Source: Loxodes magnus (lineage: Eukaryota; Ciliophora; Karyorelictea; Loxodida; Loxodidae). Taken from it: DNA of 64,000 nucleotides. Numbering within the stretch: position 1 is the stretch's first letter; each line of letters opens with the position of its first letter. Position numbers and translations under genes: made by a program. This document shows, one piece after another, positions 43,328 to 64,000 of the stretch. The notes below the pieces were generated by a model that saw only the letters and a program-made list of their open reading frames with translations, was not told the DNA's origin and made no database searches. Location: assembly GCA_946699065.1 (NCBI GenBank), contig CAMPDV010000927.1:62001-126000 (forward strand), given 5' to 3'.

Positions 43328-46300
43328 ATGTATGTGCCTAATAGGTTCTACATGCAAATTCTTCTCTTTCTTTGTTTATGTAAATATAATGCTAAAGCGC
43401 AAGCTTATTATGAACTAAGTGATTTCTTTTAATCCTAGGAAATCAGCTCGAGTACTTATTAATAGATATACACTTGAGATTAGTGATATTACTTGATGTC
43501 ATAAAGTTCATAATCAATAACTTTAACTTTATGAGTATGAAATAACTGCAAGGACTTTGAGAAGAGATATCTCTATTCCATAAACTCTGATGATATTTAT
43601 AAAGTTGAAGTAACTTTACAATAAAAAGAAAATAAAGAATAGGTTCTCTCTTTCTGCCATTCTGATACCAATGATTAATTCTCAGAATGCGAAACTTTCA
43701 ATCTAGAGTAAACTTGTAATCAGTGAATGTTTTTAGGGCTTAAATATAAGGTGTTAGGCTAAAAAGGAGACCTCATATTTTGCTACTCGTAATATTCTAC
43801 AACTGGGTTTGGCAAGAAATGTGATGAAAAAGGTCTAAGTAGGTATCTTATACAAAGATATTCTGATAACTCCGTTATTATAATAGGGAATTAAGAAAAT
43901 AAAAGTGTGGCGGGAAAAATTTTATAGCTTTTGTTCTGAATTTACGACTCTTATCAAATATCTGAAGACTTTTATGAAGCCATAATCTTAATTCCATGCA
44001 TTTAGAACTGTGGTAGCTAGTGCAATGGACTTGAGATAGCAAATTGCTAAAATTATTAATTCTAAAGCATCACTCCCAACAATATTCCTTATTTATCTAT
44101 ATAAGATAAATCTGGCAAAATAGTTGAACTATTAAATAATTAAATTTATATGTTAAGATACTCAGCATAATATATTAGTTTTTCTACTTGGATTTAAAGC
44201 AATTGCTAAGAAGAGATTGAATAAAACATATGAGTTTTTGAATAAGTTAGTTTAAACTTTTTGCTAGCATAAAGTTAAAATAATAAGTATACTTTCAAAT
44301 TAATACTATACTTGGAATAAGATAGTTATTATATTATTGAGTAAAACAATTTTATAAATTGCTCAAGCTGGATATTTGTTGGAATTACTTTGAGTAAACC
44401 AAACAGCGAAGTTACATCTATTGTAATTCTTCCAAAAGGAAAAGACTATAAAGTTGAGAAATCTAATTTCATTTTTGGCCCTTAGTGGAGTGAATACTCT
44501 TATATAATTTTAGGGAGCAACTAAGTTTTTACTGGACAAATTCTTTAATTTAGAACTTATCTTTTTGATACTCTATTAGACTATGATGATTTCTTATAAA
44601 TAGCTTAACATCAAACTCCATGTCACTTAGAAAAAGAGTGTAGCTAATGTCCTTCTCCTGAAGTAAAAAGTTGTGAATTAGTATAAACCAAATATAAATA
44701 TATAGAACTATCTGATAAACCTCTAAAATCATAAGAAGCTAATATGTATTAAAATACTTAGTTTGATGATTATGGATATGATCCTTATTAATATTCTTCA
44801 CAAACTTATTCTATGAGCTTTTGAATTAAAAACTATGGATTAACAGATTAAGAAGAATTCTTCTTTCTTATTTAAGAAGAGTATTCACCAAGAAGATATT
44901 TAAAAATATCTAATTACTTTCTAATTAGCATATAATTCGATTCAGTATAAAATATTCAAAGATTTAAATTTAGTGTTAATTATGACCTTTATTTTAATTA
45001 GAAAACAGATAAAAACTAGTGATTTTTTTTGTCATATTCAGTTTCATAGAATGGTAATCTTAGTGTTTGCTAAATAGACAATATCTAAGCATAGAATTTT
45101 AAATGTGCTTAAGATAAAATTATTTTCAACTACTTTTTTTAAAGCAATTAGTTAACATTCTATGATTCTAATTATGGACTTCCTTAATTCAATGGATAAA
45201 TCCTTCAACCAAGATTTTATACTTATGACTAGATTTTAACAGAATAAGACTGAATTTAAATTATTAACTATTATAATCCTTGTGCTTCTATCAATTAGAA
45301 GTAATGCCTTTCTCCTGATATTTAAGATGACTCTAATTTGCATTTCTTTAATATTACTTAAAGCTTGCAAGAAGTTACAGTTAGTGATTAATAATAAGCT
45401 AATTAGTTTACATTCGCAGATTTAGGATATGATCCTTCTAAATACTCTACTTAGAACTATAGCTTATCTTTATGATTCTAAAATATAGGATTAAATTCTT
45501 AATAATTATTAAGATAAATAAGAGATTTATAAGCATAGTAATGAAAATATATTTTTAGAATAGATAAACCATTAAGCAGTTAATTAGTCTTATAAGTAAA
45601 AGAAATTGATTACTAAACTTCTCGATTATAAGCTACTTTAAATTCCTTCCAAATTAATTTTGTATGAACCAAGACTATTAACACTCTTAAGTGATATTTT
45701 ATTTCTCTTAGTCTAAAATCATAAACCAATCCATTGATAATTTGCTTATCTGAGTTTATATATAATCAGGTTTTGAGTTGTGAATCTTTATAAACTACCT
45801 TTTTATAGTTTGATAAAGCGAGCAAAATAAGTTTAGGAGGTAATCAGAAAGAATAGAACTTTAAAGGAAGTATTTACGATGCAAAGTTTTATATTTATGA
45901 TACTTATCTAGATATTTAAGATTCTTAAGACATATTTAATAATAATGACTGCGCTAAAAGTTGCATATGAGATGTTTGCTAGAGTCCAAATATAAAAAGT
46001 TGTTCCTTGGTGTGTCATTAAAGTTGTAGTAGTTGTTTTGGAAATAAAGTTAATAACTGTCTTAGCTGTTATAGTGGATTTTATCTAGATGTTGGCACTA
46101 ATACTTGTGAAATTTGCATTAATAAAATATAGAACTGCTTAAGCTGCTAGAATTAAAATGCTAAAGTATAGTGTAATAGTTGCACTTTAGGATTCTTTTT
46201 AAATCAATCTTAATGTATTTCTTGTTAATTTGCTATAAAGAATTGTAGTTAATGTTAACTAGATTTAAACTAAGAAGTAAAGTGTACTTAGTGCTTGAAT

Positions 46301-48789
46301 AGCTTTGAATTATCTAATAACTAATGCAGTTGTAAGATATAAAACTGCTAAGAATGTGATAACTCTGGATATACTTGTTAGAGATGTGAAGAAGGATATT
46401 TCATAGATTAAAATAGTAGAAACTGCTAATCTTGCTAATAAATAGATCCAAACTGTAATAAATGCTTCAATGTAGATTAATGTCTTTAATGTTAATTTCC
46501 TTTCAAGCTTTACAATAATAAATGCGTTGAAAATTGTCCCTTACATTAATAAGATGAAGATAAAGATTTTATCTGTGAATCTTGCTAGAATTAAATTCCT
46601 AATTGTATTGAATGTGATGAAAAGGAAAGAAGATGCTATAAGTGCTAAGTAGGTTGGGTTATTTCAGAATAATAAGAAAGTTGTATTTTATGTAGCTAAT
46701 AAGTAGAAAACTGTGCTGAATGTTTAAATAGCAAATGCTTAAAATGTTTTCCAAGCTATAATCTCTATGAAGGTAGATGTATAGTAGCATGTCCAGCTGA
46801 GAAATGAATTTAAAAGGAATAAGAATGCTAGTTATGCGATTAAGTATATGAGAACTGTGAAAAATGTAATGAATATTAATGCTTTTAATGTAAATAGAAT
46901 TTTATTAGGAATGCTTTCTATTGTTATCCATGCTCATATTATATAGATCTATGTGAAGAATGTGATTAAGACAATAACTACTTAAAGTGCTAACAGGGTA
47001 CATTTTTGGTAGACAATTAGTGTCTTAAACCTTGCTAATAAAATTAAGAGAGTAATAGCCAAAATAAATGTACATAATGAAATGCTATATTTAAGAACTG
47101 TATAAATTTTAGCTATGAAACTAATTAATGCACTATATGTGATTAAAGTTATTATCTAGAAAAAGGAAAATGCTAAAAGTGTGAATTAATAGGATGTTCT
47201 TACTGTAGTTAAAATGATATTTGCATAGCTTGTTAAAATGAGTTTATTCTCTTCAATTCATAATGCATTTAAAAAATTGAATAAACTGAAGAATTTTAAA
47301 ATGAATAAGATAATTCGAAAGATTCTAAATCTTAAGAAGATCGAGAAAATTAAAAGAATATTCCTAATTCTGTCTCTGATTTTAACTTAACTTCTTATGA
47401 AGAATAATTTATTTCAACTGCATAAGGATCTCGTTCTGTTATCATTCCTATGGTATTAACAACAGGAATAATAGCTTTAATAGTAAGTAGTGGATCTACA
47501 TCTTTATGCTATTAACTATGAATAGCTTATTGCTTAGATGAAATGATAACTTGTACAGGAATGGTTTCTGTTATGATGCCTTAAATATTTTAAGCTTTAT
47601 TTTTGGTTAACTTAGATTTTCAACAAATCATACTAGATGCAATAGGTTTTGATTTAAATTCTAATTAAAAATCTTAAACTAATATCTGATATAACCTAAA
47701 AATTCAAGGTATTAACTCAGCTACTTTCCTTTCAAATGGATTAGGAGAAGTTATAAACTTTATTTTTTGTAGTATTTCATTTCTTTTCATATGAAAGGGT
47801 AAAAATATATAAAGCAGGCTATAGTAATACTTATAGAAGACTTATGAGAATTATAAGTTTTCTACATTTATAAGATTAATTTTAAATATGTCATTTGGTC
47901 TAATGACATCTATATTAATCTAAATTCGCTTTACAAGTAAAGATGATTCATATGTTATCTTTAACTCGGTACTTGCATATATGCTATTAGTAAGTTTTTA
48001 TTTTAGATTCTAATGATTTCATTCTAAATTCTTATCTATAGAAAACTAAGCATTTACTAGAAGAGTTTAATAGATTAATCCTCTTAATAATAGAATGTAA
48101 AGTTGACATTTTTTAAAGTATAGATTAAATAATAATATAATAGTCTCTTAACTGAACTTAAGGAAAGTTCAAGCAAATACTGCTTATAGTTTTATAGTAT
48201 CTTCCTAATAAGAAGAATTATTTAAGCTTTCGTCATCATATTTGGATAAGAATATCCAGAGTTCTAGATTTCAGCTAGTTCAATATTAACTTTCAGCTAT
48301 ATAGTGTATTTATGTAAGTTTAGACCGTTGAAAGATAAAGTAGAACTAATAGTAGTTATAATAAACGAAACTTGGATTTTAGTTTTATTTCTATAGTTTT
48401 CCATTTGAATAAATGAAGATGCAGATAGATACGAAGGATTTGCATTTGCTGTAGTTTTAATTACGCTCATAATAGTAATAGGAAATTATCTATTTGCTTT
48501 TAGTATTATATTATACAACTTTTATATCTATCTCAAATAAAAAAAATTAAAAGTATAAGTTTAAAACTTTAAACAGTAGGAAATAGTTGATAACCAAAAA
48601 TTAGAAGAATCAAATAAAGAATAGGAAATTTCAATTATGGGAAAAGAGTAAAATATAACAGCCATAGAGTTCTAAAACTGTGAAACTTCTAGAAGAGATA
48701 AAGAAGCTGCAAGAATAGAAAACGATAAGTCAGAAGCTATTATTTATTAATCTAAAGATAAGGAGACAATTGAAGAAGTTTAGTTCTGA
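43328..48789 (+). CDS. LamG-like/furin-repeat multi-pass surface protein
   Basis: About 1,814 residues after removing a 17-nt intron (47990-48006). Met at 43328 precedes a signal peptide; Met at 43352 is an alternative start. Residues ~30-875 contain four concanavalin-A/LamG-like units. Each has a strand motif such as YSMSFWIKN or YSLSLWFQN and most end in a block like FKGSIYDAKFYIYD. Residues ~876-1317 are a Cys-rich, furin/growth-factor-receptor-like array (CxxC repeats such as CLSCYSGFYLD). Hydrophobic segments between ~1370 and ~1740 form a multi-pass membrane domain, with YSIFLIRRIIQAFVII in its second half. A charged tail follows, ending at TGA 48787-48789. Trp is mostly TGA and Gln mostly TAA or TAG. 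The plan parallels the 8566-17037 protein. I infer a carbohydrate- or protein-binding surface receptor; the ligand is unknown. Confidence 0.88.
47990..48006 (+). other. 17-nt spliceosomal intron
   Basis: GTAAGTTTTTATTTTAG has a canonical donor and acceptor and lies between whole codons. Upstream, the gene reads in frame 2 through the hydrophobic sequence ending AYMLL. Downstream, the membrane domain continues only in frame 1. A 17-base removal is exactly the shift needed. Such tiny introns fit ciliates; heterotrichs are known for 15-nt introns. Confidence 0.8.
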
Positions 48790-50250
48790 TAGCTATAAAT
48801 AAATAGACTATCATTTAAACTCTTATTAAATATATATCTTTCTATTAATTTTATCTTAGTAATATAAAGCATTTCACTTAAATTTAAATATAATTTAAAC
48901 TTAATGGAAGATAAAAAATAACTTCAGTAGTTTAAATAAATTAGAGTTGATATAAATAAGATAGTTATCTATTAAATTTATATATATGTGTATGTATAAA
49001 TTAGATTGTATAATTACACTTTGAATATATTTATAAATTATTTTAGTAGAAAATATAATAATTAATAAACGTATAAAGGATTAATTTAAAAGCTAGATAT
49101 TTTATTAATAGTAATAAGAGTTTAGAATTAAGTATGATGATATAAGTTAAAAGTTTGAGTATTAACTAATATATAAATGTTTGTCTTATTAATTGGTATG
49201 AGACTAATATGATAAATATTAGTAAATTAATTCTGATTATTTTATTGCTGCTAAGGCTATTTTAGATGTCCTTCTAAATAATTATTTATACATTTCTTCT
49301 TGCTATAATTACTCTAGGCATTAATAATCATAACTATTTACATTTATTTATGATTAATATAAATATAAATATAAATATATATTAAGATAATTATGAAAAT
49401 CCTTCTTAAGGAAATAAAGCAGTTCATATAAGTACTTGATATATATATTCTATTTAATTGAATTGGTATAGATGAAAAAATCCTTCTAATTTTAAAGTGA
49501 CTATAAAAATTAATGCACTAAGCAAAAAATTAGGAAATTTTACTTATTGATATACTCTTTCCTTAATTTTAGAATTATTCTATTAGTAGAAATTAGAAAT
49601 TAGAAATTATTCTCTAGAAGTGAGTCAAATAGAAACTAACGTTGGTCTAATTTATAAAACATTGAAATAGATATAGCTTTTCTTTTTTGCTTCTATTAAC
49701 AAAATTTAAATAAGAGTACTAAATAATAATTTCCTATTTTAATTTTATCTATTAGCATTGAGAGCTGCTTAAATAAATTGCTTGTAGTATAGATAGAATG
49801 AATAATTAGAGATTAGTTAAACAAATGAATAAAGATTAATGCTTATTAAGTTTTTATTTAATAACATTTCTAAATTATTTCCTTAAACTAAGAGAAGTCT
49901 TAATTTTAATTCTGCTGATAAAATTTATCAAATGCAGTGTAAGACTTGATTAAATATGGGAAGCTATTTATGATTAAGAGAATAGTAGCTTATTAAAATA
50001 AAAATAATTATATGAAGCATTTAAATAAAATTAGTTTTTTATATTTATAATCTATAAATTAGATGTATAATACCTAGTGTATATTTAGAAAATAGTAAAG
50101 AATATTTATCTAATTTTACTAATATTATGGTTTATTTGAACTTTAGAAATAACTTTTTTAGGAAAATATCATTCTAATTAAAATTAATCATCTTATATAG
50201 TTATTTATCTAAAGCTAATAGTTATAATATTTTCTTTGTAAAATTAAATA
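48790..50250. other. AT-rich intergenic stretch
   Basis: No gene is recognised. It includes a short AT-rich tandem tract (AATATA units) near 49358-49382. Confidence 0.45.
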
Positions 50251-50499
50251 GAAAAATTCATCCGCCTGTTTCATGATAAGTTGTCGTTTTATTATATAAT
50301 AAAAGTTTATATCAAAGACATATTAGAAAAAGGAAAAAAGGATACATAGAAAAGAAAATTTAATTAAAAAAGAAATAGGAAAATACTATAGAGCAGTATA
50401 AAGCTAAATTTTTAAGAGTGTATAAAAGCTTGATAAAGAAGAAAAGAATTAGAAATGAATATTAGCAAGATATGTAAGAAAAAATAAATTAAGCTTGCA

Positions 50500-50715
50500 A
50501 TAAAGATCTAATATAGCGAAGATAGATAGAAGACAGAAGAACAAGAGATAATTTAGAGAAAATGAGGAGGTAAATAAGGAAAAATGTAACTAATAAGAGA
50601 AGAATTTCTATTATCTGAAGGCTTACTTGAAGAAACGGATATATATTGAGATGTGGAAAGAGCTGCGCACCAACGAGGTGCTACGCGCTGCATAATCAAA
50701 TTTATTTGTTTATTA
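50500..50715 (+). repeat. GC-richer segment with hairpin motif, copy 1
   Basis: The segment ends in a ~50-base motif (50666-50714) that recurs diverged at 57903-57951. It contains a perfect hairpin, GCACC-AACGA-GGTGC, at 50667-50681 and runs into a TTTATT-rich tail and then a (TA)n tract. In one plus frame the ~200 bases before it read as balanced protein text ending in AAHQRGATRCIIKF, with TGA as Trp. It may be the 3' end of a short interspersed or non-LTR element, or a coding remnant. Confidence 0.4.
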
Positions 50716-50717
50716 TT

Positions 50718-50722
<5 letters not shown>

Positions 50723-50782
<60 letters not shown>

Positions 50783-50790
50783 TATATATA
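50723..50790. repeat. (TA)n microsatellite
   Basis: About 56 bases of uninterrupted TA dinucleotides, then AAA and a further TA run. It lies directly after the motif copy at 50666-50714, as AT-rich tails of retroelements often do. Confidence 0.95.
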
Positions 50791-51199
50791 TTTAAATTTT
50801 AATAGAGAAATAGAAGAAAAATCTATAACTGGAAAATAAAAATAAAATAATAAAGAGTTTTTACGGATGAGAAAATTGCCAAGATTGTAAATAAAATTTA
50901 AAATATTTGATGCTATGTTATCAAAATCAAGAGCAAACATTGTCGACTTCTGGGTTTATTTGCTTATATGGAAACATTTTTTATAAATTATCCAGATTAT
51001 AAGATTTTATTGACTCTAAATAAGCAAAATTTTAAAAATAATTTAAAAGTTAGAAAAAGTTTTGATTATAAATAAAAAAAGTTTAGAAAAATAATAACCA
51101 AGTCTTTACTTTCTTATTTTAAAATAAAGTATATTCATTTTATACACTATACTCAGGTATTTAAGTCATAAATTTATAAAATTAAAGAAATTAATTTTT

Positions 51200-54150
51200 A
51201 TTTGTTTTCTTAGCAAAGTCATTTTACTAAAACTTAAGAAACAAAGAAATAAATTCAAATTTTTTTATTTTGTCTATCCTTTAGGAATAAATAACTATAT
51301 TTACTTATTTTTATTTTTTATATCTCTCTTCACAATCAATTAACTAGCCATTTATTTAAATCTAATTATCTAAAAAATCTAAATAAAATCATATAAACCT
51401 AATAAAATAGTGATGTATGCTTTTTGTTTCATTTAATTTTAAATAATTTAACACTAAAATGAATATCTTTCATAATAAGTTTTTATTAGATATAATCTAT
51501 AAGCATCAGCATTTTATTTTATCTTATAAATTACTAAATTTATATATGTAAAAAACTAAAAGTCTAATTATATATTTATTAAGCAATTAAAATCTTATAA
51601 TATATATAAATGAATAAAGCTTATTTGATTATATCTTAATCATATATTACAATATAAATAAAGTTTTATTATTAATTATTATATGATACTCTCTGATACA
51701 TTTTAGCTTTATTTATAGATATTTTTTAATTTATGATTATCTACTTTCTAAAGATAATATTCTCAATCTACTTTTAGCTAAAATTAATTAGGCCTTTTTT
51801 CTGTGTACATTTTAGCTAATTTAATTTATGATATTTTTTTAATAAGTTAAATTCTTATTTCAGAGTCTTTCAATTTTTGTAATAATTTAAGAGGATATCT
51901 CAAATTAAAAATAAGGATAGTTTAAACTATTAAAAAGATATAGAAGGTAAATAGACAAAAGTACATAACTTAAGAGTAATTTTGCTCTGATAATTAAAGA
52001 TAATTTATATTAATTTAAAATAATTCCAAGTTCTTTGAGCTATCTAGATATTAATATAATTTAGCTAAGCAATAGTCACTTTAGAAGAAGCTTTTCTTTA
52101 ACATTTACCTATATAAAGCCTATATTTAATAATTAAATAGATTGGCTATATTATAATACTCTCAATTATATTAAAGTATATAGATAAATGATTGTACTAT
52201 AGAATACTTAAAGTTTCTAGGTAGATATCTTTATAATTAAGATATTTTTATATTTTTTAAGGAAAGCCAATAAAAATAAGCACAATTCATAAGATGAGAG
52301 AAGTAAAATGTTTCACTCAAAAATTAAATAATTAAGTGATTAAGTAGTATAATTATCAAACAATTATTCATAAGCAAAGATAATAAAATAATAAAATTTG
52401 AATTTATATTATATTAAATTATATAAAATCACTATTAAAATAAGTAATCATTATCTAATAATATATGAATTAAAAATTAAACTTTGCATTAATAAAAATA
52501 GAAAACTCTTAGTGGAAGAACAAAAATTGTATAAGTATTAAGTTTGATTCAAAAAGAACTAGAAATAACTAATTTTGAGATTCACTAAAATTTCCGGTGT
52601 TTTATAAAATAAATTAAAGGAAAAAAGAGAATATTTAATTATTTTAATTTTTAAGTATCTTTATAGTGCTTTTTTTAATTATATTCTCTTAGATATTTTA
52701 GAAATTTTATAGTCATAATGTGATATAAGTAACTTGATACAAAGTAATTATACATTTATTTTATTGCCTAAAGGAAAATAATTAATTAGCTAGTTGGAGA
52801 TTGTTTAAACTTGATATCTAAGGAGATGGCAAGAATAGCGGAAGTTTTAGATTTAAAGAGTCTTCCTTCAAAAATAACAAGATAAGTTAAAAAAAAATAG
52901 AATTAGAAAAGAAAAATTTAGATTATAAGAATCTTATAAGTTTAAAAATACCAAGATAAATATTTATTATTTAAGTTAAATTATTTAGGAATAAAAAAAG
53001 TCTCAGGTTAAAAAATTTTATAATTATAAATCATATCAGAAGAATTTAAGTTCGACAAGGAAGAATAAAGCCAGCTTGATATTTACAAAACTATTTGATA
53101 AAATTATCTGATAAATTAATTTTTCAGCTGCTTATAGAAATGGAATGACTTGTAAATGAGATTAACTACACTCTAAACATTTTTAAATTTATTGTCCAGT
53201 ATATATTGATATTATTGAATATCTATACCTAACATGCCTAATGCAAATTATTATTATATTAAAGATAATAATCTCAACTAAATAAATTGTAAAAGTGATT
53301 AATTAGATATAATATAACCATATTATAAGTAAAACAATTAATTATGTAAGCTTGAGAAGATCTAATTTACAGGATAATTAAAGTAAAAAGGAAATAATAA
53401 TTTTAAAGAGATTAAATATAATTAAATTTATAAACCTAATGCTTAAATATAATAAAGATATAAAGCCTCTTACAAATAGATTTACACTTACTATAAATAT
53501 ATCTAAGATATATATTATTAAACTCTATTGATATTGGTTAATTAAATAGTAAAGCTCAAAATATCTAAATGATAGATATTAATGAGATTTAATTAAGGAG
53601 CTCATATTAAAAATATCTATATATATATCTTTTTTCTAATTGTTTTTTATATATCTAATACTTTTTTGGGTATATTAGATAAAAAGCTAAATACACTTAT
53701 CATTTTTATAAAAAAAAATCCATAAAAATAGAATAAAAATAAATATATCTTTAGTGTTTAAATCTCCTATTAAAAAAAGTCTATAATAAAGCAATAAAGT
53801 TAAGAGATTAATGGTGTTTATTAAGATTATATCTAACTTTTATCTTAAAAATAATTTTATTAGGTAACTTTGCTTTAAAATAATTAAGAGTACGAAATGC
53901 TCGTTTTATACAAAAGGAATTTAAAAATGATTACCAAAATATTTTAAACAAAGAGTATGATTAAATACAATTAAGAAGATTAGGTATATTGTATATAATA
54001 AAGACATATAAATATAGAATAAAAAGTTAATCCAATATCCTTTTTCAATAATTTTATCTAGATAATTGAATATACGATATTTCTTAAAATCCTTATATTT
54101 TATTTCCTCATATTATAAAACTTAAAAATAGTAAATAGAGGAGCAAATAA
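51200..54150 (+). repeat. Large decayed repeat, copy R2
   Basis: Diverged partner of 27150-31640, with matching patches in the same order and strand. It is about 1.5 kb shorter, so one copy has gained or lost sequence. A GC-richer stretch near 52790-52960 reads as balanced peptide (including RRWQEQRKFQIQRVFLQKQQ) in one frame and may be remnant coding sequence. Confidence 0.5.
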
Positions 54151-54234
54151 TAGAAAGAGCTTTGCAATAAGAAATAGCTAAAGTTAAAAGCTTTTAGTAT
54201 AGAACTTTAAGTTGGAAATCTCATGAAAAGTTTT

Positions 54235-54262
54235 GTGAAAAGTTTGATATAAAACTTTTCAC
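54235..54262. promoter_or_regulatory. Perfect inverted repeat upstream of eEF1A-like gene
   Basis: GTGAAAAGTTT (54235-54245) and AAACTTTTCAC (54252-54262) are exact reverse complements around a 6-base spacer. A further direct copy, TGAAAAGTTTTG, begins at 54223. The cluster ends 58 bases before the ATG at 54321. It could be a dimeric regulator site or a 5'-UTR hairpin. The arms are well above what AT-rich background usually gives, but function is inferred. Confidence 0.4.
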
Positions 54263-54320
54263 GACTTAATTGTGATTGGCTTATTTGACTTAAAATATTA
54301 AAAATAGTTAAATAAAAATA

Positions 54321-55745
54321 ATGCCAAAGGAAAAATCACATTTAAATTTAGTGGTAATAGGTCATGTAGATTCAGGAAAATCTACTACAATAAGTAATAT
54401 GATTAATAAATGTGGAGGTATTGACAAACAGACAATTTAAAAATTAGAGAAAGAAGCTGAATAGAAGAAAAATCAATTCAAATTTGCTTTTATATTAGAA
54501 ATATAAAGGTAAGAGCCTGAACGTGGAATATAAATTGATATATGCCTATAAAAATTAGAAACTTCTAATTATGAATATATGATAATAGATGCTCCAGGAC
54601 ATCGTGATTTTATAAAAAATATGATTACAGGTACTTCTCAAGCTGATGTTGCTCTTCTGATAGTAGCAGCTGCATAAGGAGAATTTGAAGCTGGTTTTAG
54701 TAAAGAAGGATAAACTAGAGAACATGCACTTCTTGCTTACACTTTAGGAGTAAAGCAATTGATTGTAGGAGTAAACAAAATGGATGATAGAACAGTAAAC
54801 TATGGAAAGAAAAGATTTGAAGAAATCTAAAATGAAATGAAGGAATATTTGAAGAAAGTAGGATATAATCCAGCAAAGATTCCTTTTGTTCCTGTTTCAG
54901 GTTTGTAGGGAGATAATTTGACTGAACCTTCTAGTAATATGAATTGGTATAAAGGATAAACTCTTCTTTAATGTTTAGATGAAGTTCTTTTACCAAAAAG
55001 ACTTATTGATAAACCTCTTCGTATACCTATTTCAAACGTATATAGGATTAGAGGCATTGGAACAGTTGCAGTAGGAAGAGTAGAAACAGGAGTTTTAAAG
55101 CCTGGCATGGAAGTAATATTTGCTCCTGTAACTTTAACTGCGTAAGTAGCCTCAATAGAAATGCATCATTAAACTCTTAAAGAAGCGATTCCAGGAGATA
55201 TAATAGGATTTAATGTAAAAGGTATATCTGCTAAAAATATAAAGAGAGGATATGTTTGTGGAAATGCAAAAAATGATCCTCCTTAGGAAGTAGGATCTTT
55301 CTTAGCGAAAGTGATAATTTTGAATCATCCAGGTAAAATTAAGAAAGGATATTGTCCTGTTTTACATTGTCATACTGCTCATATAACTTGTAAGTTTTAG
55401 GAATTGAAATAGAAAATAGATAAGCACACAAGTAGAGTAATAGAAGAAGAGCCTTAATATTTGAGATAAGGAGAGGCTGCTATTGTTTAGTTAGTTCCAA
55501 GTAAACCAATGTGTGTTGAAACGTTTTAATAATATCCTCCTCTAGGAAGATTTGCAATAAGAGATTTGAGACAAACAGTAGCAGTCGGAATAATTTAGGA
55601 AGTAGAGAAGAGAGAAATAGGAAAGAGAATGACGAAAGTGGTATGGAAGGAAAACAATGTATATAATTAAGCAATATTAAATATTATATTAATGAGAATA
55701 AGTTTAAAACTGAAGATTGAATATATTTTAATTAATTTTACATGA
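54321..55745 (+). CDS. Divergent eEF1A-like translation GTPase
   Basis: The translation aligns along its length with eukaryotic elongation factor 1-alpha, the GTPase that delivers aminoacyl-tRNA to ribosomes. G1 is [10 protein letters not shown]3 is [20 protein letters not shown] and G4 is NKMD. Domain 2 shows [12 protein letters not shown] and domain 3 HTAHITCKF and [19 protein letters not shown]. Switch I reads ERGIQIDI, where eEF1A has RGITI. The Thr that binds the nucleotide magnesium is thus Gln, spelled TAA. No intron or frame break is seen, and Trp appears only as TGG. The canonical length (~449 residues) is reached at a TAA, 55668-55670. The first TGA, at 55743, would add 25 hydrophobic residues. 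I end the gene at TGA following the inferred code, but 55670 is a strong alternative. It is probably a paralogue, not the main factor. Confidence 0.88.
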
Positions 55746-57654
55746 GATAGATTATATACATTAATAACTTTTTAAGAATAATAATAAAAGAATTAATAAA
55801 TAATTAAATTGGTATAAAATTTAATATCATTAATATTTGATTATTTAATTAGATACTTTTTTAATATTTTAATTTGTAATTTTAAACATGATTTGTCATA
55901 TCCTTTTTTCTTTATAATTTTCTAAAAAAAGAGATTATAAATATTATAATTAAAATTAAAAAAATCATATAAAATCATAACTTCTAGAAGAGAAATGTAA
56001 ATAGGAAAAATGCTTGAAAAGTTTAAATCTTAAAGATTAAAAGGATATTGTGAAAATTCTATGATAAGTAGCTTATACAATTAAAATATTAAAAGGTAAT
56101 AAAAGAAATTTAAGGCATACTACACATAAATCTTAATTTAGCAGTACTTATTATTATAAAAAATAGATTCTTGTGATTTTTCTTACAGTGATAAATATAA
56201 ACATTATTCCTGTCTAAAGCTAATATAAAAGAAAAAAATTGTTTCTGCCTTTCAAAATAATATATTTGAAGAAATTTGATTAAAGAAATTTTTAGGAGAA
56301 ATTATACAAAAATTAAAGGAAAAATATTAAATAATATTTAAATTAACTTAGCTATATTATATACATAATTATTATAGAAGTCTAGATGTAAATTGTTTTT
56401 ACTTATAATTCATATATAATTCCTATAATTTATATTATACGTTTATAATAATAAATAGGTTTAAATTTTAGAAAATTACCAATTAGATTAAGATCATAAA
56501 GAGCTTATTTTTAATAACTTGAACGTGTCATATTCTATGTTTCTATTTTTCGTAAAAAGATTGCTGTAGTTAATTTTTAATTTTATTCTTAAAGAATGAA
56601 AAATTCAATTATATATATATTTTTGGTAAGATTTAAATAAAAACAATGTACTATATAAAACCACTTTGTAACTATCTACTAGAAGTATTATCAATTTTAT
56701 ACTTATATGCCTCAACTTGATGTGATTAATAAAATTTAAAATTGAGATATTTAAGATTTATTATGAAAACTTTTAGTTGTTTTAAAATCTAACTTTTTCA
56801 CTTACTGGGTAACTTTTAATAAATAATTTAAATTATCTTGCTAACTGTTTCCTTTCTTTAGGTTTTATATATAATTTTTTTAATTTAAGTATTTATGCCT
56901 CTACTACTGTTTATACTCTTATTTATAAATTAAATTTATATATTTTCTTATACTATTTAACTTTTTATTATTATTTATTTCTTCCTTTACAAATTTTTCA
57001 GGTACTCTAATTAAGCTTTATAATAGAAAATTAAACCAAATACAAACCTAATTTTAGGTAAATAGTATTTAAAAAATTAAATTTATCTTAATTATTTATA
57101 AATAAGCAGATCTTACAAAAATTAATTCCATCAAGAGTAATCAATCAAATCTTTATGTCAAAGAAAAAGAATCCTTATTACTAGCTCTTCATATATTTTA
57201 AATGGTTTTATTTTTTGATGCTTTAGTATCCTTTAACAGTATAAAATAATCCTTAATTTCTCAACTTTTTATATATAATAGATATTATATATGTCTTAGC
57301 TAAATTTTAAAACTTAAATTATTTAAAAATATGATACTAAAAAGGGTTTTTATTTTAAATTTATTCATTAGTCGAAATTAGAGTTATAAATAGTCCAAAA
57401 AGATAAAATTATGCTTTTATTAATGTTTGAAGACAAATAAAGGAATAAAAACTGAAAGATATTACATTGAAAGTCATATTCAGTTTAAGATAAATTAGTA
57501 AATTAATTTTTGCAAGACAGAATTAAAAAAGATATATATAAAGGTATTTAAAAGAGTATAATGATAAATCATTTTAAATTACTTTTTACTAAATATTTAT
57601 CGAAATAATACTAAACTAAGCTATTTGTAGAACTTTGCTCTATTTCATTAAAAT
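55746..57654. other. AT-rich intergenic stretch
   Basis: No gene, RNA or clear repeat is recognised. Composition is that of the general AT-rich background. Confidence 0.45.
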
Positions 57655-57960
57655 AATGCTATTATAATAAACCAATAACAAGAAACTCCTAGAAGGAAGA
57701 TTCGAAAAACTGTAGAACTCTGAATGTCAGGAGAAAACCTTCTTCATCATAGATCGGGGAAAAGATGTACCCGTAATCGCATATTGCATCCTATGCATTG
57801 GAGGGTTAAATTGCATGCTCGCCCTGTAGGAAGAGAAATCAAAGATAGAGAGACTTATTAAATTTTATTTTTCGACTTTAAATAAAATTAATTTAAAGAA
57901 CTTCACACCAACGAGATTGTTATGCGCTCTATAAACCAATTTATTTATTTATTCCATAAC
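57655..57960 (+). other. GC-richer coding-like island with motif copy 2
   Basis: About 57680-57850 is markedly GC-richer than its flanks. It reads in one plus frame as a balanced peptide, including CQEKTFFIIDRGKDVPVIAY and CMLALQEEKSKIERLI, without TGA. I do not recognise the family. Downstream, at 57903-57951, is the diverged second copy of the motif at 50666-50714, again followed by a TTTATT-rich tail. The island may be the 3' part of a mobile element that also left its end at 50.7 kb, or an isolated gene fragment. Confidence 0.35.
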
Positions 57961-58399
57961 TTTTGTTTGTTTAGATATTAAATAATTTTAATTTAACCAT
58001 TTAAATTTAGAGTAATAATAATAATAATAAGATAAAAAAGTTTCAATACTTTGAGTATAGGAACATAATTGCACTACTTATATTTATATTTCATGCGAAT
58101 TATGTTAAGTATAAGAGTTTATGTAATTTTATTATCAACCTCTAGTTAATTCTTCTATTTCTATTATTAATTTCAGTAAGAATATATTAAAAGACTTACA
58201 AAAGTTTAACTTGGATCAACACAAAATTTGTCTAATAGAAATGAATTAAAGTTTATGATTAAAGTGAAACTAGAATTTAAGATATTTTTATAAGATTCTT
58301 ATATCTAAATATTTACATCTAGCGCTAAAATAAAAATTTAATTACACTAATTTAATAAAGAAACGAATTTTCGAAGAGATTTGATTAAAATTGATTAAG

Positions 58400-59668
58400 T
58401 GATTTACTCTAAAGCTGAAAGCTTTTATCTAGTTTTTAAGTCTATTTCATGTCTGACTATTTAAAAACTAACATCAGGAGTGACCTAGGAATTTTCTCTA
58501 ATAGTTATTTCTACTCAATCCAAAAAAATATTGTTGGTGTTAAATTAGTTATTTTGGCCAATTTAATACTATATCCATAATCACACTCCATAAGAAGCTC
58601 ATTTAAGAAAGGATTTTATTCTTCATAAAATTTGAGCTACTTCAAAACTTTTTGTTTAAGATAAAACTAATCTGGAAGATTTTTTTTTAATACTAATCAA
58701 ATATTTTTCTTGCTACTTACCAAATATAGTAGTAGATAAGAAGATTTTTGAAAATCACCCTTTAGCATTTTCAATTTTTCATTTTTTGTTATTTAAATCT
58801 TTATTCTGCAGAAGGTATCTTTTTATGTTTGATAATTTTACCAATTTATATAATACAATTTAGATTGCTCTTCCTAATAAACCTTTGATATAACTTTTTT
58901 TGCTAAAGTTAAAAAGCTTTGTTAAAGCCTTAGTAGTCAGACATCTGACCTATTCTATAGCTTGCCTCCATTAGTTTGTCATGAATTCCTACTAAGCTTA
59001 GTTAGGCGGTATAGTACTTCATTAGTGCATCATCCTTTAATATTCTGAATAGTTCTTATCTTGCATGTAGCGTTCCTAATTATTTCTCCAAGGATTAAGA
59101 TTTGAATTAAAGAATTTTTACTAGAAATTTTTCCGCTTTATGTTGGATATATCCTAAATAATTTTTTTAAATATATTATTTATTCTTTCTTTAAATTTCG
59201 CTAAGTTAGTAACAATTCTTTCATTGGTGTTATTTATTGCACACCTAGCATTTTATTCTTCTTTTAAACTATTATTCCTGTAACACTTATTTAATTTAAA
59301 TTTACTACTTATTGCAAATTAATTTTTACTGTTTATTTTAATTTGAGGCTTCATTTTCTATTTCCATAGAATCTGATTAATTCTGTTAAAACGAAAATGG
59401 CGTTACCTGAATTTATTATTAAATTTAAATAATTCCTTGTTCCTATTTGCTTTCTATTTCTTACGTTGATTAATATTGCTTCTCAAGCAAAGACGTTATT
59501 AGTTTTTCTAATTTTTCACTTTATCAGTGAGATATCTGCTTTAGAACATAAACTCATTTAATGACTTAGATAATATTTATATTTGAGTTTGTGTCGAGAG
59601 TTTTTCAATTCTGGATTTCCAAGTGGTTAATGTTCGCCATATCAATCATATTTCTCACTTTCACTCAT
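58400..59668 (-). pseudogene. Decayed locus: helical ORF followed by acetyltransferase relic, copy C
   Basis: On the minus strand a frame opens at Met 59668 (MSESEKYDWYGEHQPLGN). Balanced, probably helical text continues in two other frames, including NERIVTNLAKFKERINNIF and DALMKYYTAQLSLVGIHDKL. The frame shifts between them fit no obvious short intron. The last of these frames ends at TGA, and two bases later ATG starts MLKGDFQKS. That is the start of the acetyltransferase also seen in copy A, followed here by a degraded region with MECDYGYSI and, near 58410-58480, traces of the hexapeptide core. The locus therefore preserves the upstream partner of the acetyltransferase family. I do not recognise the upstream protein. 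Parts of it could still be functional. Confidence 0.5.
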
Positions 59669-59899
59669 TGTAATTATTTTGCTTTTTTAATTTTTTATAG
59701 AATTTTCCTGTTTAAATGTTTTGTTCAAAGTTCTGTTATTTCTTAGAAGCCATTTTATATATTTATATGTTAATAAAACCATATAAGCGAAAAGTGTATT
59801 AATTAAATTTAGGTAAGTAGCTATAAGTTAATAATTATTTTAGCATGAAGGATTAAACATTTTTAAAATAGTTAAATTAATAAAGTTTAGTTATTTATA

Positions 59900-60300
59900 T
59901 GCAGTAAATTAAATTAAAAGTCTATTACTACTAAAATTTACAATTTTTCCTATTTTTATTCTATATCTAAATCACTTCATATAAATTAATAGTTTCTTCA
60001 TTATTATCAGTTCTAGTGCTTTGCAAGAATTGCTAGAATTATTTTAAGTGTTTAATTACCGAAGAAAGGTATTATTATTAAAGATTTTGCTAAACTAAAT
60101 AGTTAAATTTAAAATAGTTAAATCTTATTTAGATATATTAATTATATATCTCTGATGATAATTTTAAACTTATTTATTATTCTTTATAGGTTTTATTTAT
60201 TTAGATATTGTAATATTTACACTTTTATGCTTTATAAAATTACTAGCTTTGATTCTTTTTTATTATTAATATTAAATAAAATATTTCTCCCTATATAATT
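59900..60300 (+). repeat. Large decayed repeat, copy R3 left part
   Basis: The stretch ~59950-60200 aligns with ~27880-28150 of copy R1, including an ATTATTATCA patch near 60000 and 27938. The right-hand part of this copy resumes at ~63200-63800. About 3 kb, including the Gag-like gene, lies between them, whereas the corresponding R1 patches are about 0.5 kb apart. Confidence 0.4.
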
Positions 60301-61015
60301 TATAAGATTTTTCTTAGATTAAAATTTAATTAAGTTTAAATAAAATAAAAGCTTTGAGCAATTATTTAAAAATGTATTTATCTTAAATAATTTTATAATT
60401 TTTAATTATAATAAATAGATGATTAATGTGTTTCTATCTTATATAATGCTTATAATTATAAAGTTTTATATAATATATTTAAGTTTTATAGATATCAATC
60501 ATAGTAAAAATTAATTATATTTATTTATATTAATAAAATCTTATAATATAATATCTCAATTATAACATGCTTAATATTTAAGATATTTAATTTAATGCTT
60601 TTTAAATATTATAATTTATTAACCTTAATTAATTTTAGCATCTATACTATTAAACATTTTTAATATTAAAATAGATATAAAATTAAAATAGCTAATCTGC
60701 TTCATATATTTAATTATTAATTACAGTATTAAGTAAATTTTAAAATAGACTAATTAAGCAATATCTCATTGCTATTTTAGATATTTTTAATTTAGATATA
60801 TATAATTTATTATTTTCCTTTTTTTGGAAAGGTTACTTACTTGAAATTAATTTCTAAGAGCTTTTTTAAATTTAGAGATTAATGGTTATATTATCTTTTA
60901 TCAACTATTAAATGAATCTATTTTCTATTTTTAAATATCTATTTTAGTTATTTCTTTTTGGTTCATGTTTAATTTAATTTATTCTTTAAAATTTTATTCA
61001 TAATTTTTAATAAAA

Positions 61016-62779
61016 ATGGTAGAGATTTTATAGAAAGTAAATGAAGAAAAAAGTCGAAGGAACTCTTGAAATTACTTTTCATAAAGCACCAGTAAAGTAT
61101 AAGTACCTTTCTGGAGAATCTGAGAAGTACTAGAAAAAAAATAAAACTCTAGCAAATAACCTCAGAAATCTCAACTTGAGACATTCGATAATTTGAACCC
61201 TAATTAAAAACTAGAGCTGGAAGAGCTCAAAAAAGAAGAACTTATTAGTTCTATCAAGGACATAATGAATGCTTAATCTACAATAAGAACAAGATTGATA
61301 TTTGAAGAAGATTACCCTTGTGAGTCTTCTCTAATGAAATAAGAATGATTCTGGGTACTAAAGGAAAATATTGAAATTTCGGGAGAGCAACAGGAAAAAG
61401 AGGCCGCCAAATTAAAGAGGAATTGCAAATAATATCAGAAAAGATAAACAATCTAGGAATAAAATAAGAAATTATATTAATGATAAAAATAGAATCAAAG
61501 AAGTCAACGAGATGTAAAACTTACAATTATGTGAGAAAGATAATGAAGAAAAACTAATACTACCCCTCTTAAAGATATTTACTAAGCAACTGTTGAAATT
61601 ATAAAGAACTAAAATAAAAACAAGAATAAATTATTGAAAAATGATAAATTAGAATTCCTGGAAGTGCTGGATACAAACAAATAGAATTTTAAAAAAGAAT
61701 CAAAAATTATTAGCTAAAGATACAGGGCTAAAAAAATAGGCTTACCCTTTTATTTGAAATAGAGAAATTTTTAGACTTTTAGATTAAGCTGAAAGGTAAA
61801 TAGTTATTTTAATAATTAATATTTTTAAAAGGGATTAATAAAATGGAAGGATTCAAAAGAGATTTCTACACCACTTCCAAAAATTGGAGAGGAAACCTAA
61901 TCCAATCTTGTATACTCTTCTTTCCCTCAACCCTAACCTTTCTCTTAATCCTAATGACCTGGAAAGTAACAGAAAAAAACTCAGAAAACAATACATGCAA
62001 TAACTCAAACCTCACAAGAGATGCCAAGGAAACATTAGAAGTCTGCTCTTCACTAGGAGGTTTCGGAGTTCAATCCTTCTAGCTAGATGAGTATGGAATG
62101 GCTCATCAAAGTGGTACTGAATCTCCAGGAAGAAGTCAGGAAGCTGGAAAAGAATTATAGCAAACTAATAGAGAATCTGAATAAGTAAGAGGAAATCAAA
62201 TCAAGACTCATGTCTAAGGTGAGATCTAAGCGCTTTCTGGAACATATTTCAGAGTCAGAACAGCTAATCCCAAAATCATGATAAAAAATTTAGAGAAATT
62301 GACGATTAATTAGCATAGCTAGTTGAAGGTCATCAAACATTGCAAAAGTAAATTGAATCAAGGGATTAGAAATAAGACAAGATGGAAATCGAAGAAATTA
62401 AAGTTAGCAAGCCTTTATACAAGCGAGAAATTAAATATTGCTACTACTGTGGCTCAAGAGAACATTTGTGAAGGAAGTGTAGGAAATTACTAAATTTCAA
62501 GCAGAGTTATTGGCAAAAGCAAGGATAACAGTAGGAAAAAAGGAATAGGTAGCAACAGCTCAAATTTAGAAGGAAAAGAGAACGATTACGGATGAGCACT
62601 CTTGGGAATATATGCAAGAAAAAAGGCAATTAATAATGGAAGAGAAACTAGAAACTTTAAGAACAAGAAAGACAGGGCAGTGGGCAGAGTACGAACATTT
62701 AATTTTAGGCTCTGGAGCAATCTGGAAGTAGGCTAGAAATAAGTTGAAATACCTAAAGAAAGTCAAACACTCCTATTCT
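61016..62779 (+). CDS. Gag-like coiled-coil protein with CCHC zinc knuckle
   Basis: From Met 61016 one frame stays coherent to 62218, first Lys/Glu/Gln-rich with likely coiled coils (LELEELKKEELISSIKDIM, later LQEEVRKLEKNYSKLIENL). After a frame change it continues to a zinc knuckle, CYYCGSREHLWRKC (62439-62480), matching CX2CX4HX4C; its Trp is TGA. After a second change an acidic/basic helical tail ends at four consecutive TAA (62780-62791). A 34-nt GTGAGA...TTTCAG intron (62219-62252) and a weaker 26-nt one (62506-62531) would join everything into 568 codons. A 36-nt in-frame segment (61796-61831) also looks intron-like. Indels in a decaying element are the alternative. G+C is clearly above the surroundings. 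Knuckle plus coiled coil suggests a retroelement ORF1/Gag, but no reverse transcriptase is in the window. Confidence 0.6.
62219..62252 (+). other. Putative 34-nt intron in Gag-like gene
   Basis: The segment starts GTGAGATCTAAG and ends ATATTTCAG, lies between whole codons, and its removal produces exactly the frame needed to reach the zinc knuckle. It has higher G+C than the 17-nt intron at 47990. A one-base indel near 62270 would explain the frame change equally well. Confidence 0.35.
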
Positions 62780-62791
62780 TAATAATAATAA

Positions 62792-64000
62792 AATTTTTTT
62801 AAAAGCAAACTTTACTATAATTATTTTAGAGTTAATTAAACTTTTTAATAATTTAATAAAATACCACTAATTTAAAATTATAATAATTTTAATTTTTAGT
62901 GTGAAATTAATGGAAAAAAGAACTAAGAAAAATCTAATTTTAATAAATCTTCACTCTATTAATTTTAATTAATTATATATTAAATTAACTATGCCTCCAT
63001 TTATTTTTACTATCTAGATTTCTATATTTTCAGTTATTAAAATTATCTTTAAAGAAAATAATTTTCTTTAGAACTTATCTCATTTAAACCTAATTTTAAT
63101 TATTAAGTATTGAAGTTCTAATATCATACTTTTGATGATTTAAATATTTTAAATTAATGAAATAATATCTTTATTTATAAAATAAGATTAATTAATTTAT
63201 ATAAATAAGATAAGTAAGTTATTAAATGTTCATATTTTCTTTTTCAGTTTATTTGATCTTCTTGATAGTGAATTATTTTTATACTTATTGGATGATTATT
63301 TCCTTGATTTAATACTTTTTATTTTGATGTTTTACTTTTCCTGTTAATCTGCCACATTTCCTTGTAACTCAATTTAGTCTTCCACTATATAATTTGAAAA
63401 ATTCTAAATATGTAAAATATTACATTTTGAATATTTGCTTCCTTTAAAAACCTCTAATCATAGATTTTAAAGTTAGATTCTCTTAAATTATAGTTATCAA
63501 AATGAATATTTTATATTAATTAGTTATCTTAAGAAGTTATATTTTAACTTATATCTAATCTAGTTGTTGCTTAATCTCTAGTAGTTTATTTTTCACTTAT
63601 ATTTTAAATTTATCTTTTAATCTTTTTCTTTAGTTTTATTTCCTCAATTATATCTCTTACTAGACAGTAAATACTTAATACCATTCCTAAAAATGTAATT
63701 ATGTTTGATATTATCAATTTACTTACCCTAACTTTTCTGAACTTTCTGACTAAATAGATAATAAGCTTCTCTTTGTGTATTGTTTATCTATCTAATAGAA
63801 GTAAATATTGAATAAACTTAAAATAGTTAGTCAAACTTCTAAAATAATATGAGTACAGTTAAGTACTTTTCTAATAAATGGATTAAATCTTATTATATAA
63901 ACTATTTATGATATACTTATTATGCTACACAGTACTATTTATGCTATTTAGTATTTCCTTAATCCTATTAAAATAAATGCTAAAATCAATCTTCTTACAA
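62792..64000 (+). repeat. AT-rich stretch with R3 right part
   Basis: No gene is recognised. The stretch ~63560-63680 aligns well with ~28610-28730 of repeat copy R1, including an exact CTTTAGTTTTATTTC patch (63628 and 28679). ~63290-63420 aligns more weakly with ~28370-28500. The copy runs to the window end. Confidence 0.4.

Follow-up and report, generated by a model that had tools for sequence, protein, structure and literature searches.

Ski7 of budding yeast, a paralogue of Hbs1, is an EF1-family relative with a non-canonical active site and a proposed pseudo-translational GTPase, suggested to bind GTP and not to hydrolyse it; it keeps the cation-coordinating Ser in switch I and carries a Ser for the catalytic His (PMC4509514). 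Tsr1 shows the EF-Tu-like domain order without a working GTPase, all five of its G motifs being disrupted (PMC4895721). In Escherichia coli EF-Tu, replacement of Thr61 of switch I by Glu (T61E) gives a protein that remains open when bound to GDP and, with GDPNP, has a slight preference for the open form; the authors conclude that a modified Thr61 locks EF-Tu into an open form that is not functional, or moves it in that direction (PMC5851678). Among protists, including Perkinsus, Paramecium and Naegleria, species-specific expansions of the core translational GTPases have been reported, in which duplication is massive and the copies are often highly divergent (PMC4342817). Fewer and less divergent paralogues have been reported from karyorelict transcriptomes (PMC6935857).

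The eEF1A-like gene described here lies in a window of 64,000 nucleotides from the karyorelict ciliate Loxodes magnus (GenBank assembly GCA_946699065.1, contig CAMPDV010000927.1, positions 62,001 to 126,000 of the forward strand), and all coordinates are those of this window. Like Ski7, its product is an EF1-family relative with a non-canonical active site, although here the catalytic His remains and switch I has lost its hydroxyl; in contrast to Tsr1, its G1, G3 and G4 motifs are intact. Among relatives for which a lack of GTP hydrolysis has been proposed, Ski7 is the closest precedent. The Loxodes family resembles the protist expansions in its massive duplication and divergent copies. It also shows repeated loss of GTP-site residues, of which the passages of that report on the expansions make no mention (PMC4342817), and at the genome level the family looks like an exception to the karyorelict transcriptome pattern. 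We regard this family pattern as more interesting than the single codon discussed below. None of the literature matches listed concerns a Gln at the switch-I Thr position or this eEF1A family, and the paper on the Loxodes genome does not use the term 'elongation factor' in its main text (PMC11441545).

The gene occupies positions 54321 to 55745 of the forward strand, 474 codons up to the first in-frame TGA, with TAA and TAG read as Gln. The 474-residue product matches human eEF1A2 over query residues 1-440 (E = 1.3e-192) and scores above the curated cut-offs of the Pfam domains GTP_EFTU (PF00009), GTP_EFTU_D2 (PF03144), GTP_EFTU_D3 (PF03143) and GTP-eEF1A_C (PF22594). Its PDB matches reach about 644 bits for eEF1A, against at most about 322 for Hbs1 and eRF3, and in a tree built without eRF3 or Hbs1 the gene branches among Loxodes eEF1A copies. 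By these criteria of similarity it is an eEF1A by descent, with an EF-Tu GTP-binding domain, a domain 2 and an eEF1A-type domain 3. The protein shares its three-domain architecture, G1, G3, G4 and the catalytic His with canonical eEF1A (human eEF1A2; Loxodes L014 and L018), and is 74-75% identical to four canonical-type Loxodes copies and 68% identical to L031. The sequence-only reading, an earlier note made from the letters of this stretch, had described the three motifs as intact, which is correct: the P-loop GHVDSGKS of G1 (54360..54383), the DAPGH of G3 and switch II including the catalytic His (54588..54602) and the NKMD of G4 (54774..54785) are all kept on the forward strand. Of the elongation-GTPase features of eEF1A that were checked, those absent are the switch-I Thr and the aminoacyl-binding pocket residues Q239, D240 and N295, here Ser, Asn and Ile. 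Compared with canonical eEF1A, the window protein thus has Gln for the switch-I Thr and three of six pocket positions changed, and in addition R67P, a longer tail and weaker constraint.

The replacement of the switch-I Thr by Gln, the central claim of that reading, stands. Residue 71, in the motif PERGIQIDI, is Gln encoded by TAA (54531..54533, forward strand), and it aligns at the G2 position with Thr72 of human eEF1A2, with Thr72 of canonical Loxodes eEF1A and with Thr62 of E. coli EF-Tu (Thr61 when Met is not counted). In the L. magnus code UGA is the sole stop and can also mean Trp (PMC11441545). Our alignments of the eEF1A family reflect this, in that 58 of 103 in-frame TGA codons stand opposite a Trp of a canonical copy, a tally in which a codon covered by overlapping alignments may appear twice and the remaining TGAs fall partly in divergent or broken stretches. 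A sequencing or assembly artefact, or a misread TAA, can be given next to no credence as the source of the Gln. Among 56 TAA codons at conserved columns, 30 stand at Gln positions and 21 at Glu positions, and canonical-type eEF1A copies have TAA at Q108, Q132 and Q239; the published code agrees (PMC11441545). Moreover, the TAA is identical in six copies with differing flanks, and Gln is present in the other two. Random sequencing error is excluded, because Gln is found in all eight contig copies, independent copies here standing in for reads.

These eight copies (hereafter Q copies) are L001-L007 and the frameshifted L045, and they read RGIQ at the site except for L004, which reads RGVQ. L002 and L003 show zero substitutions over 4.4 kb and five indels, and may be one locus assembled twice. 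The gene is carried by a segmental duplication on eight contigs at 94-98% identity (on C1283 and C706 in broken pieces), of which the interval 46000..63900 of the window covers only a part. Sequence extending 8.3 kb upstream and 8.1 kb downstream of the window gene is likewise found on the same eight contigs at 94-98% identity, and therefore the Gln form is present in every contig with the segment. Canonical eEF1A occurs in the same genome, with 12 copies on C232 and one on C126, and canonical-type copies are found on C373. In all, the genome has at least 96 eEF1A-like matches, counting fragments and more distant relatives and scoring only the best candidates; nine array copies on C256 and four hits on C4057 and C4072 are outside the fetched part. 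In that fetched part, 71 distinct stretches cover the switch-I site, with Thr in 55, Gln in eight, Ala in three, Ser in two, Asn and Ile in one each and a gap in one. Outside the genome, Thr is found in all 67 of the EF1A loci that cover the site, out of 75 found in the prokaryote collection. Two contigs, C232 with its 12 copies and C256 with 15 near full-length ones, hold many intact canonical-type eEF1A genes each, those on C256 forming an array with a repeat of about 1.64 kb.

In nucleotide and protein trees of 26 loci (from 31 aligned, with repeated array copies and partial and frameshifted loci omitted), the six Q copies included are monophyletic with 100% ultrafast bootstrap support and form one clade amid the Loxodes eEF1A paralogues. 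The trees and the selection estimates below use six of the eight Q copies, L003 being dropped as identical to L002 except for five indels and L045 as frameshifted. The closest relatives of the clade are L008-L010 together with L013/L015, then L029, and all have ACA (Thr) at the site. The change from ACA to TAA therefore represents two base substitutions, both placed on the stem branch of the Q clade. A Ser (TCA) step between the two is possible, since codon 214 varies between TCA and TAA within the clade. When compared with L008, the Q copies appear as a mosaic, with 45 differences in codons 40-80 (window 54438-54560) and none in codons 280-360 (window 55158-55400). This bunching suggests gene conversion. 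Pairwise omega values of 0.86 and 0.85 against L008, which look neutral, were discounted for the same reason.

The Gln is accompanied by other changes at sites that are otherwise nearly invariant. We selected 106 sites with at least 97% identity across the prokaryote-collection loci and no variation among five canonical-type copies, and 12 of them are changed in the Q clade: G25S, D61E, R67P, T72Q, F80L, T88M, Q239S, D240N, P251A/V, E276Q, N295I and G372S. Three of these map by alignment to the aminoacyl-binding pocket of EF-Tu. S238 and N239 of the window protein (55032..55037, forward strand) correspond to canonical Q239 and D240 and to E. coli E216 and D217, and I294 (55200..55202, forward strand) corresponds to canonical N295 and to E. 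coli N274; all three E. coli residues are among six pocket positions that were randomised to make EF-Tu carry phosphoserine (PMC6386890). The pocket change Q239S, D240N, N295I is present in 8/8 Q copies, and the other three of the six positions are the same as in canonical copies. A change in the pocket (D240 to Asn or Glu) is common to L008-L010, L013/L015 and L029. The pocket was thus altered before the Gln arose, because these sister lineages share its change and keep the Thr. The changed pocket suggests, at the level of residue mapping, that the grip on aminoacyl-tRNA may be weak or altered.

The sister lineages have lost GTP-site residues of their own: D91N in L008-L010 and L013/L015, D17E in L008-L010, and H95Y with N153S in L029. 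In the partial copies L043/L044 the changes are D91N and H95Y, and L038/L039 keep the pocket and have T72A with H95Q/Y. There are exceptions to this pattern. L033/L034 keep both the pocket and the GTP site, and L035 keeps the pocket and has D17N, G94E and H95C; the copies on C83 change N295 with none of the listed GTP-site residues altered, and L048/L049 have a changed pocket and retain T72, D91, H95 and N153. In the window gene, the helix and switch-I region (approximately residues 36-82, 54426..54566, forward strand) belongs to the part of the gene most diverged among the paralogues, and has lost one residue and acquired R67P close to T72Q. Variability across six paralogue lineages is highest in the stretch 41-80, with mean amino acid differences of 0.66 and 0.55 in its two 20-residue windows against at most 0.354 in the others; this stretch is not the most variable one in canonical-type copies (0.20 and 0.13) or in 63 outside loci (0.48 and 0.28).

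Gln is without the hydroxyl that coordinates Mg. An altered GTP cycle in the Gln protein is a fair inference by analogy, since the Gln sits at the equivalent of EF-Tu Thr61, the position at which T61E favours the open form. The analogy is imperfect. T61E is a laboratory phosphomimic in a bacterial protein whose Glu is charged and held by K56, whereas the window protein has a natural, uncharged Gln, common to a gene family, and a Pro at the position of K56 (R67). Because Gln adds no charge and the Lys partner is replaced by Pro, the trap would not be identical in detail.

It is quite improbable, given these changes, that the protein still works as an elongation factor, with the main chain of switch I sufficing for its function and aminoacyl-tRNA still delivered, perhaps with an amino acid preference shifted through the altered pocket. 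The catalytic His, the P-loop, NKMD and the three-domain sequence are intact, and the three changed pocket positions belong to the set of six that were altered in EF-Tu so that it would take other amino acids (PMC6386890). Nevertheless, Thr is kept in every outside locus covering the site and in the fetched canonical-type copies, T61E moves EF-Tu to the open form (PMC5851678), and switch I has both R67P and a one-residue deletion in a gene under relaxed constraint.

With moderate confidence, we favour the reading that the gene encodes a switch-impaired eEF1A-like protein, probably no elongation factor, that is weakly constrained for a non-elongation role or still eroding. The sequence, copies, phylogeny, selection and residue mapping are the observations from which we infer its biochemistry and its role. 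The gene would be a lineage-specific paralogue that arose by duplication from a canonical-type eEF1A copy, in an ancestor of which the pocket for the amino acid of aminoacyl-tRNA was altered first; the switch-I Thr would then have become Gln on the clade branch, with the P-loop, DAPGH and NKMD retained. The protein would be expected to hold guanine nucleotide still, through the P-loop and NKMD, with switch I closing poorly around Mg and the gamma phosphate. Nucleotide binding would then be uncoupled from the change between open and closed forms, and ribosome-triggered hydrolysis would be weak. The role seen by selection would most likely be a non-elongation function of eEF1A, such as that of a scaffold or cytoskeletal partner.

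The sequence-only reading had also observed that the frame has no disabling lesion and had taken this to suggest selection for a different role. The frame is indeed open over 474 codons, but this carries little weight, as an open frame is weak evidence of function in a code in which no codon acts unconditionally as a stop within genes. The point calls for general caution, as open frames say little wherever all three standard stop codons can be sense. Furthermore, the Q clade no longer has the ancestral TGA stop of its lineage. In the carboxy-terminal tail (55650..55745, forward strand), a one-base deletion and a base change have removed the terminal TGA of L008. The frame extends about 25 codons past the end of L008 into former 3' sequence; L014 and L018, both canonical, stop after 449 codons. 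Two of the eight Q copies are frameshifted, L007 by a 7-base deletion near the gene end and L045, which is broken into three frames.

Selection was estimated with a codon model written for this genetic code. The Q copies are under weak purifying selection and are not neutral. For the six copies, omega is 0.206 over 443 codons (26.0 for twice the log-likelihood difference from omega = 1; 0.207 and 25.8 on refitting) and 0.222 over 435 codons (22.3). As controls, 12 frames in the flanks of the same copies, fitted with five optimiser starts, gave omega of 0.43-1.54; two 3'-flank frames fell below 1 at nominal significance (0.43, difference 5.7; 0.49, difference 4.1), and none came near 22. Among the off-frames of the coding region, four gave 1.44-2.48 and one, an antisense frame, likewise had a low omega (0.38, difference 8.8). 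A neutral pseudogene was rejected on the comparison of omega of about 0.2 with these flank controls. No coding indel separates any of L001-L006, compared with 3-10 per pair in 1.5 kb of 5' flank, although the AT-rich flanks may gain indels faster than coding DNA. Conservation of the Gln itself proves little, because the copies differ by only about 0.7-2.3% in coding sequence.

The canonical-type set (L012, L028, L014 and L018) gives omega of 0.019, reflecting mostly deep divergence, with pairwise values of 0.010 for L014/L018, 0.020 for L014/L012 and 0.61 for the close pair L012/L028; L031/L032 differ by a single amino acid change. Constraint on the Q copies is thus about tenfold weaker than that on the canonical gene over its longer history, a rough figure since some recent canonical-type copies (L012/L028 and L031/L032) also look relaxed. 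Selection on the GTP-site region is not separable, because codons 1-125 vary within the clade at only three sites, all amino acid-changing, with omega not distinguishable from 1. Two more specific patterns of selection were considered and rejected. Release of the GTPase domain alone appeared in fits with separate branch lengths (0.62 for domain I, indistinguishable from 1, and 0.11 for II-III) and was absent with shared lengths (0.22 and 0.19, no difference). Positive selection on the branch leading to the Q clade found no support, as no omega there exceeded 1 (0.40 for codons 1-443, 0.25 for 1-125 and 0.54 for 126-443, the last not different from 1); these branch values come from a single optimiser start and are approximate, and the accompanying within-clade value of 10 for codons 1-125 is meaningless.

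The proposal of selection for a different role holds in one respect, that omega is well below 1; the neutral dN/dS which the sequence-only reading had named as refuting was not observed. As originally argued it does not stand, given the weak bearing of the open frame, the roughly tenfold weaker constraint, the lost stop, the frameshifts and the fact that the Thr change followed changes in the pocket. A distinct role for the Q copies is possible. The relaxed constraint, the frameshifts in two of eight copies and the lost stop also fit slow decay. In its full form, decay would make the Q copies an eEF1A pseudogene family riding on a segmental duplication, the change from Thr to Gln being one of many tolerated in the absence of any product or any need for one, with the apparent constraint a relic of a functional past or a distortion from gene conversion. 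The 12 changes at near-invariant sites and the omega of 0.54 over codons 126-443 on the branch leading to the clade are as this reading would have them, as are the many other eEF1A fragments in the genome. We consider it rather unlikely, though deserving of some weight, because the within-clade omega was estimated after the change to Gln and is clearly below 1, which most flank frames of the same copies are not, and because the six copies are free of coding indels and G1, G3 and G4 are intact.

A switch-impaired protein under weak constraint, the reading we prefer, would matter beyond this locus. A natural lineage without the switch-I Thr, under constraint that is weak but significant, would offer a ready-made test of what an eEF1A-like protein is capable of without its switch. 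Dozens of eEF1A relatives in one ciliate, with GTP-site losses that differ by lineage, bear on the way in which a translation factor with several functions gives up its enzymatic one. A bolder version, to which we attach very little probability, is that the clade represents eEF1A proteins that do not switch and that have a function on the ribosome other than amino acid delivery. They might, for example, sit in the factor site and adjust whether UGA is read as Trp or as stop, in a genome in which the reading of UGA is set by context. If so, the losses of different GTP-site residues in sister lineages after a shared pocket change would be convergent locking of the switch and not decay.

Elsewhere in the window, none of ten selected open frames between 1389 and 62595 matched Pfam at 0.001, long open frames arising easily under this code. 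Searches of the window with Rfam at the gathering score gave no match, and ARAGORN in its bacterial setting found no tRNA; viral contigs searched with patterns of the window protein likewise gave no match. Further paralogue groups of the eEF1A family (L033-L035, L038 and L039 on C139; L037 and L040-L042 on C83) carry in-frame TGA codons that mostly coincide with Trp positions, and their switch regions are altered (GNT, GMA, RCIT), with omega of 0.16-0.38 in sets of three to four copies. Two loci, L071 and L072, on contigs filed as a Desulfosporosinus genome, encode an eEF1A 78-79% identical to the ciliate protein, so that this bin probably holds eukaryotic DNA. Two repeats were also noted in the window. 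A stretch of about 870 bases at approximately 58904-59780 is found in at least 32 further places at 91-93% identity. The stretch at approximately 47330-49480 recurs at 80-88% identity on many contigs beyond the eight that carry the segmental duplication, and is therefore part of a wider repeat family.
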